Positions 22,351 through 30,461 of a stretch of 30,461 bases of DNA are shown in pieces. The stretch is from a virus: positions 1-30,461 of IMG/VR virus record IMGVR_UViG_3300025889_000614; one strand, 5' to 3'. Position numbers and translations under genes: made by a program. How positions within the stretch are numbered: position 1 is the first letter of the stretch; each line of letters begins with the position of its first letter. The notes under the pieces were generated by a model. That model saw only the letters and a list, made by a program, of their open reading frames with translations. It searched no databases and was not told the DNA's origin.

Positions 22351-22464
22351 GGGGGACAACGCACATAGTTTGGACTTGCTTCTTGTCGGTTGCTTATAAT
22401 TCACTCTATTATAATTTATTTTTTTTTTCGTCCTTATTATGTATAGTCGTTTTAGTTGTCCCCC
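22351..22464. repeat. Wide inverted repeat in the divergent gene gap
   Basis: GGGGGACAAC (22351-22360) is the exact inverse of GTTGTCCCCC (22455-22464), separated by 94 bp of very A+T-rich DNA with long T runs. It lies between the divergent starts at 22296 (-) and 22474 (+). The right arm ends 9 bp before the rightward ATG, and the left arm is about 55 bp from the leftward ATG. Paired operators for a regulator, or the edges of an inserted module, are both possible. Confidence 0.6.
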
Positions 22465-22473
22465 TTTTTTTAT

Positions 22474-22998
22474 ATGAGGACAATAGAAAGATATTCCTAT
22501 TACTACAGAAAAGGTAAAATAAAGACGTTCAAGGAACTATCCAACGCTTCAAGGACACACATACCCATTTGGTTAGAGAAAGTCCGCCAGAACGAAAATT
22601 TCAAGGAATTTGATTGTTATCTGTTTGGTTCATTATTGGACAAAGAAACTGCCAATGATATGGATGTGTTCTTTACGGGTGATTATATGCCAGAGTTGAT
22701 TGTTGATTTGTTGGATTACTCATTGGATGTTGCGATGAATCAAATGGGTATTCGTATGGATGTATTCTTTATACCCGATTTCAGTTACCTAACGTTACCT
22801 CCTCACTTTACTAGCACCAAGACGTATAGGATTTATAGCAGCTATGACTTTGAGTTGGAAGTGATAAAGGGTAAGGTATCCAAGTTTAGAGAATATGGGG
22901 TTGATTGTAAGAATGGATTGTTTGGATTGTATCATACTCAATACCATCAAAAATCTATTGATAGGGGTAGCACCATTAGATTACAGAAGTTGTCCTAA
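22474..22998 (+). CDS. Minimal nucleotidyltransferase (Pol-beta superfamily fold)
   Basis: I use the ATG at 22474 (174 aa). The sequence DCYLFGSLLDKETANDMDVFF contains the hallmark GS (G52, S53) and D-x-D (D62, D64) of the nucleotidyltransferase fold, and a third acidic residue follows in GIRMDVFFIPD (D96), so the catalytic set looks intact. Such enzymes transfer a nucleotide to protein, RNA or small molecules. Stand-alone minimal forms include the MNT antitoxins that AMPylate HEPN toxins, and antibiotic-modifying enzymes. No HEPN-like partner is recognisable next to it. In a phage this could inactivate a host factor or toxin. The substrate is unknown. Confidence 0.65.
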   Translation: MRTIERYSYYYRKGKIKTFKELSNASRTHIPIWLEKVRQNENFKEFDCYLFGSLLDKETANDMDVFFTGDYMPELIVDLLDYSLDVAMNQMGIRMDVFFIPDFSYLTLPPHFTSTKTYRIYSSYDFELEVIKGKVSKFREYGVDCKNGLFGLYHTQYHQKSIDRGSTIRLQKLS

Positions 22999-23017
22999 TT
23001 TAGATTGATTCTAAATT
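22997..23017. terminator. Inverted repeat at the nucleotidyltransferase stop (terminator or operator)
   Basis: AATTTAGA (22997-23004) and TCTAAATT (23010-23017) are exact inverses around TTGAT. The left arm overlaps the stop codon. T-rich DNA follows within 10-20 bp. The core TTTAGA-N-TGA-TTCTAAA-like sequence recurs at 24096-24118, so a shared operator is as likely as a terminator. Confidence 0.5.
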
Positions 23018-23044
23018 ATCTAATATTGTTTTCTTTTTTTGTTT

Positions 23045-23065
23045 TTGTAATATTTATTATTACAA
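23045..23065. repeat. Short perfect inverted repeat
   Basis: TTGTAATA (23045-23052) and TATTACAA (23058-23065) flank TTTAT. It sits just before the structured noncoding block and may be an operator or a weak hairpin. No T-run follows immediately. Confidence 0.45.
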
Positions 23066-23085
23066 GAGTGGATAATAGGTTTTTT

Positions 23086-23325
23086 GCCGACTACACGACC
23101 TACCACGACAAGAAGATATAAGATAACTTATTTCTTCAACCCCGTCAAATCACGCTAGCTCCTTCTAGGGACTTGTGAGCGTTGTGAGCCTCAAAAGAAG
23201 ATTCTTTTAGGTCGGGTCTAAACTAGATGATTGTAAGCCTAGCGCACTAGCACTAGCAGCATCTAGAAGGGGACTTGACTTTTGACCTAAAAGAAGATTT
23301 ATCTTCTTGGAATAAGAAAGTCGGC
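23086..23325. ncRNA. Structured noncoding block: putative ncRNA or replication origin
   Basis: From 22999 to 23379 (381 bp) no credible gene exists; the TTG-started frame from 23275 enters through repeats. Base composition is visibly richer in G+C than the neighbours. Several exact pairings exist on one strand: GCCGACT (23086-23092) with AGTCGGC (23319-23325) enclosing the block; GAAGATATAAG (23112-23122) with CTTATTTCTTC (23127-23137), one mismatch, loop ATAA; CTCCTTCTAGG (23159-23169) with TCTAGAAGGGG (23262-23272), including two G:U; TTCTTTTAGGTC (23202-23213) with GACCTAAAAGAA (23284-23295); and AAGAAGA (23291-23297) with TCTTCTT (23302-23308). Some exclude each other or interlock like a pseudoknot. 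AAGAAGAT occurs three times, TTGTRAGC three times and CTAG about ten times. Strand and boundaries are unproven. Confidence 0.45.
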
Positions 23326-23379
23326 CTCTATACCAGAACTAGCACTAGAACTAGTATCAAAAAAAATATATTAGATAGT

Positions 23380-23793
23380 ATGATGATAGTAGACATTACT
23401 CAACAGAAGAACAAGTTATTAGATGATGTAATGAAAGATTTACCTATTGAGAAGGTAAATCTTTTTATGTTACTAGACAGACCAGATTTTATAGAGAGAT
23501 TTGATTATGAATATGACAATGGTATAGAGTTCAAGGACTTCATTGCAGCTTCATTAGGGTATTTGCATGTTACCTATCCCAATAAAGTATATGGACATTT
23601 ATTCTCCGCTATTGTTATGGATATATTTGGTGACGTAGAGGAATGGAATAAGATTCCCAGTTCTGTATTTAGAAGATTGAAAGAACATTTTTTAGATGTG
23701 ATTACAGATATTGAATATCAAGAGTTACCGTCAAATCATATAGATTTTGAAATGGTTTATGTTATGTTAGAAACAGAGTTAGAAAATGATTGA
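23380..23793 (+). CDS. Unknown acidic protein
   Basis: I start this at the ATG at 23380 (137 aa). The longer TTG-started version would read through the structured noncoding repeats into TRTSTRTS-like low-complexity sequence, which is unlikely to be protein. The product is acidic and mostly helical (LLDDVMKDLPIEKVNLFMLL, then FRRLKEHFLDVITDIEY), with no membrane segment or Cys cluster. The stop overlaps the next gene's start by 8 bases, so the two form a coupled pair. I do not recognise the family. Confidence 0.6.
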   Translation: MMIVDITQQKNKLLDDVMKDLPIEKVNLFMLLDRPDFIERFDYEYDNGIEFKDFIAASLGYLHVTYPNKVYGHLFSAIVMDIFGDVEEWNKIPSSVFRRLKEHFLDVITDIEYQELPSNHIDFEMVYVMLETELEND

Positions 23794-25021: not shown

Positions 25022-25180
25022 ATGAAAAACTTTGTAAAAATCATCATCGCACTTGGTAAGAAATACGGACAGCACAGCCCCGAACAGATGCGAGCTTGGA
25101 CTTGTGAAACAGAACAAGAATTGAACCAATACGCTGAAATCTTCTTGGGTTCTAACTATGTAAAAAATCTTTCAAAATAA
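25022..25180 (+). CDS. Unknown 52-aa protein
   Basis: The ATG at 25022 is fixed by the promoter at 24970; the longer TTG-started frame would begin inside that promoter's -33 box. The product is helical and soluble, with KIIIALGKKYGQHSPEQMRA and ETEQELNQYAEIFLG. Its last four residues (NLSK) and the DNA after them are identical to the end of the gene at 25892-26077, in a 28-bp exact repeat. Function unknown; the shared gene end points to a cassette boundary. Confidence 0.7.
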   Translation: MKNFVKIIIALGKKYGQHSPEQMRAWTCETEQELNQYAEIFLGSNYVKNLSK

Positions 25181-25189
25181 TTTTGGCAG
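25162..25189 (+). repeat. 28-bp direct repeat, copy 1 (gene end plus next -33 box)
   Basis: Identical to 26059-26086. It covers the codons for the shared NLSK-stop and the TTTTGGCAG box of the next promoter. It joins a gene end to a promoter, the expected product of shuffling gene-plus-promoter cassettes. Confidence 0.85.
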
Positions 25190-25213
25190 AGTAAAAAATC
25201 CTCCTTACCTTTG
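25181..25213 (+). promoter_or_regulatory. Bacteroidota-type promoter; leaderless start predicted
   Basis: TTTTGGCAG (25181-25189) with TTTG at 25182-25185, 20 bp to TACCTTTG (25206-25213). Only AACT separates the -7 box from the ATG at 25218, so the predicted transcription start falls on or beside the start codon. Confidence 0.88.
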
Positions 25214-25224
25214 AACTATGAAAA
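25182..25224 (+). repeat. 43-bp direct repeat, copy 1 (promoter plus start codon)
   Basis: Identical to 25472-25514. It runs from the -33 box through the start codon into the first Lys codons. The genes that follow the two copies are otherwise unrelated. Confidence 0.9.
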
Positions 25225-25484
25225 ACGAAAAATATCAACACGAAATTATTCCTATGAGTGATGTAAAATGTTTTACTGACTTTGGTTGGTATGATTCTTT
25301 ATGTAAAGAAAGAACACTCTACGAAGGTTTATCTTATTTGGTGTGTAATCTCAAAGGTGATGATTACAACACTTATTTTGAGATGTGGGACGAAGAGGGA
25401 TTCATTGGTAATTACTCTATTCCCAACACAGAAAATGGAAAATATATTGTATCAAAATATTTTCAAGAAAGTTTGGCAGAGTAA
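25218..25484 (+). CDS. Unknown acidic 88-aa protein
   Basis: This starts at the ATG placed four bases after the -7 box of the promoter at 25181. The protein is acidic and rich in Tyr, Glu and Asp (FTDFGWYDSLCKERTLYEGLSY, DDYNTYFEMWDEEGFIGNYS). An acidic, aromatic surface like this is compatible with a DNA-mimic or protein-inhibitor role but proves neither. Its last codons carry the -33 box of the next promoter. No family recognised. Confidence 0.7.
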   Translation: MKNEKYQHEIIPMSDVKCFTDFGWYDSLCKERTLYEGLSYLVCNLKGDDYNTYFEMWDEEGFIGNYSIPNTENGKYIVSKYFQESLAE

Positions 25485-25503
25485 AAAATCCTCCTTACCT
25501 TTG
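25472..25503 (+). promoter_or_regulatory. Bacteroidota-type promoter inside the previous gene end; leaderless start predicted
   Basis: TTTGGCAG (25472-25479) lies within the last codons of the gene ending at 25484. TACCTTTG (25496-25503) follows, and the ATG at 25508 comes after AACT. Sequence is identical to the promoter at 25181 through the start codon. Confidence 0.88.
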
Positions 25504-25514
25504 AACTATGAAAA
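25472..25514 (+). repeat. 43-bp direct repeat, copy 2
   Basis: Identical to 25182-25224. The first 13 bases double as the end of the coding region finishing at 25484, so promoter and coding sequence overlap. Confidence 0.9.
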
Positions 25515-25849
25515 CAACAGAGATTTTGGACGAAGTATCCTACAACTATGACGGGTTACACATAATCGGTTGCACCGCAGCAGGTGTGTATGTAAAACCC
25601 ACAGAAGAGATGTTATACCTTCTTTTCACACGAACTATGTGGAATAAGATGCAGAAAGCTTGGTTAGACCAAAAGATGGACTTTTGCACACGTTATGAAC
25701 ACTTCTGCGGGTGGGGTTGTATCCACAGCAAAGTTCAATACGTTTTTGATGGAACTTACGCAGTCCATAATGACGACTTTACAACTGATATGGTAGATGT
25801 TCCCGTGTATAAAGTATTGGACATCTTGGTTGATATGGAACACGGATAA
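25508..25849 (+). CDS. Unknown 113-aa protein
   Basis: This follows the second copy of the 43-bp promoter repeat. The sequence has a beta-rich start (LHIIGCTAAGVYVKPTEEML), a helix with MWNKMQKAWLDQKMDF, then CTRYEHFCGWGCIHSKVQYVF with three Cys and a His that could bind metal, and an acidic helix at the end (VDVPVYKVLDILVDMEHG). It has no membrane segment. Not recognised; likely an early host-takeover or host-interaction protein by position only. Confidence 0.7.
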   Translation: MKTTEILDEVSYNYDGLHIIGCTAAGVYVKPTEEMLYLLFTRTMWNKMQKAWLDQKMDFCTRYEHFCGWGCIHSKVQYVFDGTYAVHNDDFTTDMVDVPVYKVLDILVDMEHG

Positions 25850-25855
25850 AAAAAG

Positions 25856-25887
25856 TTTGGCAGTAACAAGAATAATCATTACCTTTG
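25856..25887 (+). promoter_or_regulatory. Bacteroidota-type promoter; leaderless start predicted
   Basis: TTTGGCAG (25856-25863) lies 20 bp, measured from TTTG, before TACCTTTG (25880-25887), then AACT and the ATG at 25892. The boxes match the promoters at 25181 and 25472, but the spacer differs, showing which bases are conserved. Confidence 0.87.
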
Positions 25888-25891
25888 AACT

Positions 25892-26077
25892 ATGAAAACT
25901 GGAAAAACAGCAAAAGAAAATCTTTACGATATTTTTGATTTTACCTTGATAAACAGTCGTGAATCTCACCCCGCTCGTTTATGGGAAATAATCTGTTGGC
26001 AAAATAATATAGATGAAGATGATGAAAGAATTGGTGAAATATATGATGATTGGTATGAAAAAAATCTTTCAAAATAA
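25892..26077 (+). CDS. Unknown acidic 61-aa protein
   Basis: This is a short, acidic protein (ARLWEIICWQNNIDEDDERI, then GEIYDDWYEKNLSK). The N-terminus is basic (MKTGKTAKENL). The start follows the -7 box by four bases. The gene end shares a 28-bp exact repeat with the gene ending at 25180. The strongly acidic second half is common in small early phage inhibitors, but there is no diagnostic motif. Confidence 0.7.
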   Translation: MKTGKTAKENLYDIFDFTLINSRESHPARLWEIICWQNNIDEDDERIGEIYDDWYEKNLSK

Positions 26078-26086
26078 TTTTGGCAG
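26059..26086 (+). repeat. 28-bp direct repeat, copy 2
   Basis: Identical to 25162-25189, covering the end of the 25892 gene and the -33 box of the promoter at 26078. Confidence 0.85.
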
Positions 26087-26109
26087 TATCAAAATAATCA
26101 GTATCTTTG
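26078..26109 (+). promoter_or_regulatory. Bacteroidota-type promoter (TTTTGGCAG / TATCTTTG)
   Basis: TTTTGGCAG (26078-26086) then TATCTTTG (26102-26109). The -7 box and the bases after it match the promoter at 24970, with a leader of about 20 nt before the ATG at 26133. Confidence 0.87.
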
Positions 26110-26132
26110 AACCATAATAAAATATAAACACA

Positions 26133-27066: not shown

Positions 27067-27075
27067 TATCTTTTG
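27067..27075 (+). promoter_or_regulatory. Possible weak -7 element before the ParB-like gene
   Basis: GTATCTTTTGAA here resembles the GTATCTTTGAA of the promoters at 24970 and 26078 with one extra T, but no TTTG is visible 19-20 bp upstream. CGGGA (27013-27017) / TCCCG (27062-27066) and GTGTGA (27040-27045) / TCACAC (27079-27084) bracket it and may be regulator sites. Confidence 0.3.
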
Positions 27076-27105
27076 AAATCACACACAAAGAGTAAAATCA
27101 AAATT

Positions 27106-27879
27106 ATGAATCATTATTTCACTAACACTGAAAAAACGGATATGGTGGTTTACCGCACAAAGAACTATCAACAGTTCAAAATCATCCAATCCAACAGAGA
27201 GCTCGTTCCTTCACACGTAGAACAGTTGAAGGAGAGCATGAAACAAAAAGGGCAATACACGCCCATTATTGTAAAACGCAATGGAGAACTTGTAGAGGGA
27301 CAGCACAGATTGCAAGCAGCAAAAGAACTTGGAATGTCAGTCCTTTATTTGGTTCGTGACTTGGACATCAGCGACATAAGCGAGATGAACAGCAAAAGTA
27401 GAAATTGGAAAAACATTGATTATCTACGTCACTGGGCTAAAAGAGGATACCCTAACTACATGCGTCTTATGGAGATTGCAGAAGAAAACGCTGACTTGAA
27501 TATTGAGGTCAGCAACTACATCATCATCTTTGGTAACGATGGAGCAAAATCATTGGATAACTTCAAACACGGAAAGTTTGCTCTTCAGTTCCAAGAAAGA
27601 GGATTACAAGTTCTACGTATCTATAGAAAGATAAAACAATATTGTGATAACAATCCCAATAACGTCTTCTTTAGAGCACTGGCACACTTGGCTATGTTGG
27701 AAAAAGAAAACAAGTTCAACATAGATAAATTTGTAAAGAAACTCAAAAGAAAGTCCTTTACAAAACCAGTCGCTGGTGGAACATTACGAGATTATCTGTA
27801 TGAGATGGATAAAATCTACAATCTCAATGAACGTTCCAATTTCCAACGTTTGGACATCAAACTAAACGGGAAACACTAA
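27106..27879 (+). CDS. ParB-like protein (ParB/sulfiredoxin fold)
   Basis: I start at the ATG at 27106 (257 aa), since the TTG start at 27073 overlaps the possible -7 element. The N-terminal domain has SNRELVPSHVEQLKESMKQK, then QYTPIIVKRNGELVEGQHRL with the EGQHR box (residues 64-68) that defines the ParB/Srx-like fold, which binds nucleotide in CTP-dependent ParB proteins and cuts DNA in some phage relatives. The C-terminal ~190 residues (NSKSRNWKNIDYLRHWAKRG onward) are helical and basic and may bind DNA. No ParA partner is present, so partitioning is unlikely. A nuclease, transcription regulator or DNA-organising role is more plausible. A strong terminator follows. Confidence 0.8.
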   Translation: MNHYFTNTEKTDMVVYRTKNYQQFKIIQSNRELVPSHVEQLKESMKQKGQYTPIIVKRNGELVEGQHRLQAAKELGMSVLYLVRDLDISDISEMNSKSRNWKNIDYLRHWAKRGYPNYMRLMEIAEENADLNIEVSNYIIIFGNDGAKSLDNFKHGKFALQFQERGLQVLRIYRKIKQYCDNNPNNVFFRALAHLAMLEKENKFNIDKFVKKLKRKSFTKPVAGGTLRDYLYEMDKIYNLNERSNFQRLDIKLNGKH

Positions 27880-27968: not shown

Positions 27969-28478
27969 ATGACCTTTTTTGAGTGGATAAATTCAAATCA
28001 TAGAGAAGCAATGGATATGGTAAGGAAAATATGTGTTGATAAAGATGCTCAAGATGATTTGTTTCAATGTGTGGTTGAACAGTTATTGGAAAAACCAAAA
28101 AAGATAAATGAAATACCAGATAGTCAAAAGATGTATTACTTTATTAGGGTGGTTAGAAATAACTACAACTCAAAGACAAGTCCCTATCACAAGGTGTATA
28201 GAAAGAACCAGAACCATCATACACCCCTTTTAGAAGAGATTACAGAGGACTTTGCTGATGAGGAGTATAAGGAGACATTACCCGACATAAAATGGGTTTA
28301 TAAACAACTTGAGGAGTTTGATTGGTTTGATAGAGATTTATTCGTTCTATGGTTAGAAATGGGGACACTAACGTCCGTATCAAAACAAACACAGATACCC
28401 CTCAACTCGGTAGGGAGATACATAAATAAAACAAAACAAAAACTAAAAGAATTATGGCAAAGGGAGCTTGGAGATTGA
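27969..28478 (+). CDS. ECF-like sigma factor
   Basis: This 169-aa protein has two helical domains joined by an acidic linker. The N-terminal part (about residues 18-75: KDAQDDLFQCVVEQLLEKPK, then MYYFIRVVRNNYNSKTS) fits sigma region 2, where a 'DDl.Q.v...l' core-binding helix is followed by a DNA-melting helix. The C-terminal part (about 118-166: DLFVLWLEMGTLTSVSKQTQIPLNSVGRYINKTKQKLKEL) fits the region 4 helix-turn-helix that reads the -35 box. It heads the packaging operon, overlapping the next gene by 25 bases, right after a terminator. A phage sigma factor here would switch host RNA polymerase to late promoters. I cannot show its target from this gene alone. Confidence 0.75.
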   Translation: MTFFEWINSNHREAMDMVRKICVDKDAQDDLFQCVVEQLLEKPKKINEIPDSQKMYYFIRVVRNNYNSKTSPYHKVYRKNQNHHTPLLEEITEDFADEEYKETLPDIKWVYKQLEEFDWFDRDLFVLWLEMGTLTSVSKQTQIPLNSVGRYINKTKQKLKELWQRELGD

Positions 28479-29369: not shown

Positions 29370-30382
29370 TTATAGAAGGAGATTGTTTTGAACTAATAAA
29401 AACCTTACCAGATGAGAGTGTTGATTTGGTAATCACCAGTCCCCCTTATGCGGACATCGTCAATTATGGTAAGAATATTTCAATCCAAAAACCAACAGAA
29501 TATGTGGATTGGATATTACCCCTATTCAACGAAATACAGAGAGTTCTAAAACCAAGTGGTAGCTTCATACTCAACATCAACGATAATTGCTCTAATGGGT
29601 TGAGAAACCCCTATATCTTTGAACTGATACATCGCTCACAGAAGGAAACCAAACTAAAGTTCTATGACACTTACATTTGGCATAAGTTGAACGGAATACC
29701 AAATGGTTCACCCAAAAGATTTAGAAACACCACAGAGTTTATATTCCATTTTGTCAAGAACCAAAAACAACTCAAGTTCTATATGGATAGGGTGATGAAG
29801 GAACAAAAAGAAATAACCAAAAAAAGGTTGAAATCACCTATGGTATTGAAATCACATCAACAGATTATAGAGGGGATTAGAGGTAGTGAAACTACAATAA
29901 ACACCCAACCAGACAAAGTCCGTCCCGATAATGTATTTAGATTCCCAACAGCGGCAACACAAAGGGATAATACCATTAGACACCCCGCACCATACCACAA
30001 AGAATTACCCGCATATTTCATCAACTTACTAACAGATGAAGGTGATGTTGTTCTTGACCCTTTTAGTGGAATAGGAACGACTGGATTACCTTGTAAGGAA
30101 ATGAATAGAAGTTACATAGGGTTTGAGTTGAACCCCAAATATGCGGAGTTTAGTATCAACAGAATAAACGGGGATGAACTTGATGAATATTTGGTATGTC
30201 AATATGATATGGATGATAATTTCATCGCATCTTTTGATGGTATAACAACTGCGGCTAATTCAATCAACTATTCAACCCCCCATAATATTATGATGTGTTA
30301 TAGGGGATTTAGAACAGAAGCAGGGGGATACAAATGGAAAATGGAATTGAAACCAAATAACCAAATAAAACTTGATTTATGA
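29366..30382 (+). CDS. DNA methyltransferase, beta class, with C-terminal NUMOD/IENR1-like domain (allele 2, complete)
   Basis: This 338-aa enzyme would transfer a methyl group from S-adenosylmethionine to an amino group in DNA. Catalytic motif IV is SPPY (residues 25-28, in DLVITSPPYADI), the form common in N4-cytosine enzymes though not exclusive to them. The binding motif I DPFSGIGTTGL (from D231) comes after it, the order of the beta class. HPAPYHKELP near residue 209 is motif X-like. The last ~50 residues (IASFDGITTAANSIN, GFRTEAGGYKWK) resemble the DNA-binding repeat of intron endonucleases, an unusual partner for a methyltransferase. The gene lies between terS and terL, in line with protection of DNA from host restriction or marking of packaging DNA. 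No cognate restriction enzyme is seen. Its core differs strongly from the allele at 3-545. Confidence 0.9.
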   Translation: MIIEGDCFELIKTLPDESVDLVITSPPYADIVNYGKNISIQKPTEYVDWILPLFNEIQRVLKPSGSFILNINDNCSNGLRNPYIFELIHRSQKETKLKFYDTYIWHKLNGIPNGSPKRFRNTTEFIFHFVKNQKQLKFYMDRVMKEQKEITKKRLKSPMVLKSHQQIIEGIRGSETTINTQPDKVRPDNVFRFPTAATQRDNTIRHPAPYHKELPAYFINLLTDEGDVVLDPFSGIGTTGLPCKEMNRSYIGFELNPKYAEFSINRINGDELDEYLVCQYDMDDNFIASFDGITTAANSINYSTPHNIMMCYRGFRTEAGGYKWKMELKPNNQIKLDL

Positions 30383-30461
30383 TTGTAGAAGTTGAAGGTT
30401 TTACCCCCTATCCAAAACAAGCCGAGTTCATTACAAAGATTGAGCAGGAACACGTCAAATA
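29832..30461. repeat. Right copy of the contig-end overlap
   Basis: Counterpart of 1-624 with exact edges and diverged middle, 6 bp longer than the left copy. It includes the start of terL from 30379. Confidence 0.85.
30379..30461 (+). CDS. terL: Terminase large subunit, first codons (overlap copy, 3' cut by window)
   Basis: The ATG overlaps the methyltransferase stop exactly as at 542, and all 83 bases equal 542-624. It is the beginning of the same gene seen after circular closure, not a second terminase. Confidence 0.9.
   Translation, partial: MIVEVEGFTPYPKQAEFITKIEQEHVK

Follow-up and report, generated by a model that had tools for sequence, protein, structure and literature searches.

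A candidate family of stand-alone structured RNAs in uncultured phages of about 30 kb

The virus record analysed here, an IMG/VR entry of 30,461 bases that is referred to as the window at its full length, contains a gene-free gap running from a stop codon at 22998 to the next ATG near 23380. Comparative sequence analysis indicates, with a probability of roughly 0.8, that the plus strand of this gap encodes a stand-alone structured phage RNA of about 260 nt. A preliminary description of this DNA had proposed an undescribed structured element at this place, which was borne out by homologues in IMG/VR, by compensatory changes on the plus strand, and by the lack of any match in Rfam 15. Judged by these searches, the element recurs in a dozen or more further environmental phages and corresponds to none of the catalogued RNA families. 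The features of the element and its vicinity are as follows.

23051–23057, + strand: TATTTAT box, promoter-like, between a T-rich tract and P1
23064–23326, + strand: whole conserved RNA element, from P1 at the 5′ side to the 3′ pseudoknot strand (12 distinct members)
23068–23080, + strand: 5′ strand of P1, GUGG then UAGGU
23086–23092, + strand: 5′ strand of PK1 in the P1 loop, GCCGACU (ACUUG in relatives)
23098–23106, + strand: 3′ strand of P1, ACCUA CCAC
23109–23118, + strand: 5′ strand of P2, CAAGAAGAUA
23112–23137, + strand: hairpin of one subclade (window, L003, L016 and L020, with mismatches), competing with P2
23150–23187, + strand: P3 (23150–23154/23183–23187) enclosing P4 (23158–23161/23177–23180)
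23168–23176, + strand: GGGACUUGU motif in the P4 loop, of which GGACUUGU is invariant in 12/12 members
23193–23199, + strand: 5′ strand of the three-strand element, AAAAGAA
23202–23213, + strand: middle strand UUCUUUUAGGUC, pairing with either AAAAGAN copy
23223–23266, + strand: P6 cassette of type A, CUAG-rich, with a CUAGAUG/CAUCUAG outer stem and a CUAG..CUAG inner stem
23270–23277, + strand: second GGGACUUG copy, near-invariant, repeating 23168–23175 at +102
23284–23295, + strand: 3′ strand GACCUAAAAGAA, forming a 12-bp helix with 23202–23213
23291–23308, + strand: local hairpin AAGAAGAU/AUCUUCUU of one subclade (window, L016 and L020), competing with P2
23300–23309, + strand: 3′ strand of P2, UAUCUUCUUG
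23319–23325, + strand: 3′ strand of PK1, AGUCGGC (CAAGU in relatives)

Twelve distinct clear members were recognised in IMG/VR (the window, L003, L005, L011, L012, L016, L018, L019, L020, L043, L044, and L138), in addition to a single partial member and a second family that has diverged; L045 carries the same element as L043. Searching with the protein of the upstream gene yielded the nearly identical contig L002 and the diverged L003, and further members were found using sequence patterns taken from the conserved core. Another scan for the 3′ half detected no members beyond these. A covariance model (R1) was built from nine members, and the members matched it with 114–248 bits, including those left out of its construction (L043, 177 bits; L138, 149 bits; L044, 114 bits). 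The second family (L114, L117, and L107/L108/L110/L129/L139) was found through portal-gene neighbours at the matching syntenic place, and its scores rose when L043, L044, and L138 were added to the model, from 17.6 to 27.4 bits for L117. The partial member L122 consists of the 5′ domain near a contig end, the contig stopping just after it. Every record examined contained a single copy. Relatives with the same virion genes, namely homologous portal and terminase, but with no detectable copy of the RNA also exist, indicating that phages of this lifestyle can do without it.

Searches beyond this group returned nothing that could be assigned to the family. No Rfam 15 family reached its gathering score in the window, and none was obtained in E-value searches of the element and its homologues, where weak matches below threshold were discarded. 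The element is neither a tRNA nor a tmRNA, and the window contains no tRNA. Phage isolates searched with the window and with L019, and plasmids searched with the L005 element, gave no match. Twelve matches in a pattern scan of genome contigs were attributed to chance, as no homology was seen outside the pattern. The best covariance match in 395 genomes (the phylum of a Bacteroidetes MAG) reached 33 bits, fell within an ORF at a histidine-biosynthesis locus, and was also taken as chance; this search used stricter filters, which weak copies could escape. L172 (18.7 bits) was rejected as a member, and pattern matches in phage DNA (L004, L006, L008–L010, L013–L015, L017, L021–L030, and others) were inspected and discarded.

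The conserved fold is held together by helices whose strands change in concert. P1 is canonical in 99/99 cells of 11 sequences and has changed on both sides at 8/9 positions; its first part occurs as GUGG/CCAC, UUGG/CCAA, UGGG/CCCA, and UGUG/CACA, and its second part as UAGGU/ACCUA, AAGGU/ACCUU, AGGAC/GUCCU, GGGUG/CACCU, AGGGU/ACCCU, and AGAGU/ACUCU, with no broken pair in either. The P1 loop is predicted to pair with the 3′ end of the RNA, thereby constituting the pseudoknot PK1, which is canonical in 60/60 cells and altered on both sides at 6/6 positions: the window clade has CCGACU/AGUCGG, and elsewhere the pairing is AACUUG/CAAGUU or UACUUG/CAAGUA. Among the long-range helices P2 is conserved best, with 97/99 cells canonical and 5/9 positions changed on both sides, the changes including CAAGAAGAU/AUCUUCUUG, CAAGAAGUA/UACUUCUUG, CAAAAAGGG/CCCUUUUUG, and CAAAGGGAU/AUCCCUUUG. 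P3 (59/60 canonical cells) encloses P4 (47/48, both-side change at 4/4 positions), whose GCUC/GAGC is replaced by GCUG/CAGC in L018, ACUG/CAGU in L043, and GAAC/GUUC in L044; P3 has changed along with P4 in L044 and L138. L044 lacks both P1 and PK1, which indicates that the full fold is not needed everywhere. For these helix-by-helix counts the strands were verified in each sequence and picked by eye with pairing in mind, so that the totals are descriptive, and the controls for covariation rest on two alignments instead. When the alignment was fitted to the model, the nested helices (PK1 excluded) were paired in 94.1% of cells, as compared with 40–50% in controls in which the partner strand was slid by 1–3 columns; 19/33 pairs had changed on both sides, and 0/500 shuffles were as good. 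A MAFFT alignment, which is not structure-fitted, gave 92.1% paired cells against 40–51% in slid controls, with 11 pairs changed on both sides.

The strand was identified from G-U pairs, found in P3 of several members and in the kissing helix described below, and from terminators lying on the same strand; both point to the plus strand. A terminator scan detected an intrinsic terminator after the RNA in L019, and similar hairpins with T-runs follow it in L012, L018, L043, L114, L117, and L110. Folding energy was lower than that of dinucleotide shuffles on the plus strand (z = −4.4) and on the minus strand (z = −5.2) alike, and hence energy by itself does not tell which strand is transcribed.

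All the helical arms that had been proposed for this region are present in the sequence (23086–23092/23319–23325, 23112–23137, 23291–23308, 23159–23169/23262–23272 with two G-U pairs, and 23202–23213/23284–23295 as a perfect 12 bp), but comparison with the relatives rearranges them. The first of these was taken as a helix enclosing the others; the pairing stands, while P1 turns it into the pseudoknot PK1. The 12-bp helix is confirmed. The 11-bp helix (23159–23169/23262–23272), thought to interlock with it, is lost in homologues, being broken in L016, L018, and the members with a type-B cassette and confined to a few type-A members; it competes with P4, and was rejected as part of the conserved fold since compensatory change preserves P4, which uses the same 5′ arm. 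The two hairpins are limited to one subclade: that at 23112–23137 lacks its 3′ arm in compact members, and that at 23291–23308 is absent from L003 and the compact members. P1 (23068–23080/23098–23106) and P2 (23109–23118/23300–23309) had been overlooked. As for composition, AAGAAGAT was indeed found three times (23110, 23195, and 23291), as was TTGTRAGC (23173, 23182, and 23231). The 10 CTAG sites counted in 22999–23379, against 27 in the whole window and about 101 expected there from base composition, come mostly from the type-A cassette and a downstream hairpin (23330–23357), so that dense CTAG is not a property of the family. The reported G+C richness applies to the core at 23086–23325 (43%, 95th percentile) but not to the whole 381-nt stretch (35%, versus 36.8% for the window).

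Within this fold, one strand is provided with two partners. UCUUUU(AGG) can pair with the upstream CCUcAAAAGAN or with the downstream ACCUAAAAGAN, and both pairings are predicted in 12/12 members. The base N following AAAAGA is identical in the two copies in 12/12 members although all four bases are used (A in four members, C and G in three each, T in two). The long-range duplex was calculated to be more stable than the local one in most members when each is treated in isolation with loop costs not counted, and the local form has mismatches in L003, L016, L020, and L044. The suggestion of a phage ncRNA with switching folds thus holds as to the structured RNA, given the covariation and the conserved alternative pairing of three strands, while the switching itself would be the interpretation of that pairing. 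An additional tertiary contact may be formed in seven loci (L012, L018, L019, L043, L114, L117, and L110), in which the loop of a 3′ hairpin is complementary to the GGGACUUG copy of the P4 loop. The kissing partners are ACAAGUCC(C/U) or UAAGUCCG and show compensatory change, as in AGGACUUGU/ACAAGUCCU (L012), GGGACUUGU/ACAAGUCCC (L018), and CGGACUUA/UAAGUCCG (L114). This helix pairs in 51/54 cells, a figure reached by 1.7% of permutations of the loops among phages. A terminator-like hairpin with a T-run comes after the kissing 3′ hairpin; the window and its nearest relatives do not possess this hairpin, and an ORF comes next instead.

The region between 23214 and 23269 of the window is occupied by one of two kinds of P6 cassette. 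Type A is found in the window, L016, L020, L005, L018, and L114, and type B, in which a pyrimidine strand faces a G-rich strand, in L003, L011, L012, L019, L043, L044, L138, L117, and L110. Both types occurred in each related phage pair examined (window/L003, L005/L011, L018/L019, and L114/L117), and L005 and L011 share 99.6% identity along the 5.2 kb adjoining the element. Such a distribution looks like repeated exchange of the cassette, which may have been selected for. A 57-aa ORF lies right after the RNA in L005 (5193–5379) and is missing from the near-identical L011.

Wherever the portal and terminase regions are both visible, the RNA lies in the interval from the end of the former to the latter, with variable distance and orientation. 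The order portal-c1-[c10]-RNA-c4-c5-c6 is common to families 1 and 2, yet L012 carries the RNA in inverted orientation at this syntenic place. Between the window and L012, whose portal proteins are about 30% identical, nothing but the RNA core matches at the nucleotide level at E ≤ 1e-3, and the core is the strongest such match between the window and L018, which points to selection on the RNA. A TATTTAT box or close variant stands a few bases 5′ of P1 in most family-1 members; it gave no sigma-70 match and may represent a promoter. No terminator was recognised after the RNA in the window clade, where an ORF begins about 55 nt downstream. Directly 5′ of the RNA, only in the window, L003, L016, and L044, lies a 180-aa protein (22456–22998) whose FGS..DMD motif is reminiscent of nucleotidyltransferases and which matched neither Pfam nor PHROG. 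The neighbouring proteins yielded nothing useful in Pfam and PADLOC scans. Six contigs (L002/L007, L016, L018, L020, L043, and L045) end no more than 165 nt from the RNA, at scattered distances on either side; these ends are probably assembly breaks at a sequence common to several phages, a physical end being conceivable.

The nearest isolates by portal protein are the Nonlabens phages P12024S and P12024L (26% identity). Promoters of Bacteroidota have the consensus TTTG/TAnnTTTG, and several promoters of the window resemble this type. This portal kinship and these promoters suggest that the phage host probably belongs to Bacteroidota. Four repeated intergenic segments (25157–25225, 25454–25515, 25848–25921, and 26054–26121), in which TTTGGCAG is followed after about 19 nt by TA(C/T)CTTTG, are Bacteroidota-type promoter repeats just upstream of small ORFs, and a second type of promoter repeat, TTGACAATCCGTATTTTGTTCGTAT, occurs at about 24152 and 26407. 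The ends of the record (1–624 and 29832–30461) are 82% identical and carry parts of two related DNA methyltransferases, which suggests that the record approximates one genome with two methylase copies or contains a strain junction. TerL at 542–1780 is of the Terminase_6N kind. Positions 27073–27879 encode a ParB-like protein and positions 27969–28478 a protein with weak likeness to sigma factors; apart from these two, the methylase, and the terminase, the window showed no recognisable gene for DNA or transcription functions and no recognisable replication protein.

Several other functions have to be weighed against a stand-alone RNA. The preliminary description had offered a replication origin or a packaging site, neither of which accords with a conserved signal that belongs to an RNA of one strand, as the G-U pairs and terminators show. 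ColE1 RNA II and other antisense-controlled primers possess one strand with two alternative partners that can be exchanged during transcription. The present transcript could likewise be the primer of an RNA-primed origin with plasmid-like copy control, its AAAAGAN/UCUUUU exchange corresponding to the alpha/beta/gamma switch of RNA II, and would then be of use to phages without replication proteins of their own. This idea agrees with a single strand that has two near-identical partners and with the gene content of the RNA-bearing 30-kb relatives, mostly virion genes and small ORFs, while the distantly related P12024S has primase, helicase, and recombination genes. However, the RNA-less 30-kb relatives, incompletely annotated, also show little besides virion genes, the orientation of the RNA relative to the genome flips, the Rfam RNAI family is unmatched, and the cumulative GC skew does not turn at 23 kb, a weak indicator where nearly all genes lie on one strand. 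The likeness to RNA II is one of general arrangement and not of alignment; unlike that system, no antisense RNA and no evidence of an origin were found, and the kissing partner of the element lies in the same transcript. An origin is accordingly an improbable function. Still less credence is given to a packaging RNA acting as a motor part like phi29 pRNA, or to a pac/cos site. The portal–terminase interval, the contig ends near the RNA in L002, L016, L018, L020, L043, and L045, and the long-range pairing and, in some relatives, loop-loop pairing, both of which resemble those of that phage RNA, would suit such a role. Relatives with homologous packaging genes nevertheless lack a detectable copy, the large terminase is a Terminase_6 enzyme and not a phi29 ATPase, no Rfam pRNA match was obtained, distance and orientation to the terminase vary, and the contig ends, scattered on both sides, are explained by assembly breaks at conserved sequence.

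Control of a neighbouring gene in cis, by a riboswitch- or attenuator-like leader, is also quite unlikely for the family as a whole. Alternative pairings are typical of leaders, and an ORF begins shortly after the 3′ end of the RNA in the window, L003, L044, L005, and L138; with its close ORF and no recognised terminator, a leader role is conceivable in the window clade. The RNA is, however, not regularly followed by a gene in its own orientation: the downstream genes differ among clades, the next genes in L012 and the small ORF following in L020 are on the opposite strand, and several relatives have an intrinsic terminator between the RNA and the downstream sequence. A DNA-level element or neutral palindromic repeat with no RNA function might be imagined from the CUAG-rich palindromes and the good folding of both strands, but it is contradicted by compensatory changes with strand-specific G-U pairs, by the single copy per record, and by the terminators on the same strand, and is scarcely credible. 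Group I and II introns were discarded, as there was no Rfam match and the element lies between genes.

The varying orientation to neighbouring genes makes a free-standing trans-acting RNA the most likely form of this element, and binding of a conserved host or phage factor is a tentative mode of action, held at somewhat less than even odds. The compact body would consist of P1, with its loop locked to the 3′ end of the RNA as a pseudoknot, and the long-range P2; the P3/P4 arm would display GGGACUUG, and P6 would be an exchangeable peripheral domain. During transcription, the UCUUUUAGG strand probably pairs at first with the upstream AAAAGAN and would then be captured by the downstream copy ACCUAAAAGAN, completing the final fold. 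Contact with the conserved partner would probably be made through the near-invariant GGGACUUG and AAAAGAN, and in relatives with the 3′ hairpin the GGGACUUG loop may be capped by the kissing loop or dimerise through it. A bolder and doubtful proposal is that the RNA represents a new class of phage RNA, a machine for strand exchange during transcription with an interchangeable specificity domain, deployed in conflict between phages or between phage and host; parallel cassettes in sister pairs are expected if the RNA takes part in conflict, for example in superinfection exclusion or defence evasion.

ROOL and GOLLD are large, ornate RNAs of phages and prophages that often lie near tRNA islands (PMC12286853). 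The present element resembles them in being phage-encoded, apparently free-standing, and rich in long-range helices and pseudoknots. It differs in being 2–3 times shorter, in matching none of their Rfam models, in having no tRNA in the window, and in its narrow distribution in uncultured phages of about 30 kb. Most large structured phage RNAs have no known function, and a covariation-supported family absent from Rfam 15 is hereby added to their short list. Its length of about 260 nt brings it within reach of structure determination and genetics, and it would be unusually testable owing to its conserved three-strand exchange and to its two exchangeable cassettes, which amount to a natural swap experiment between close phages (L005/L011 and L114/L117).
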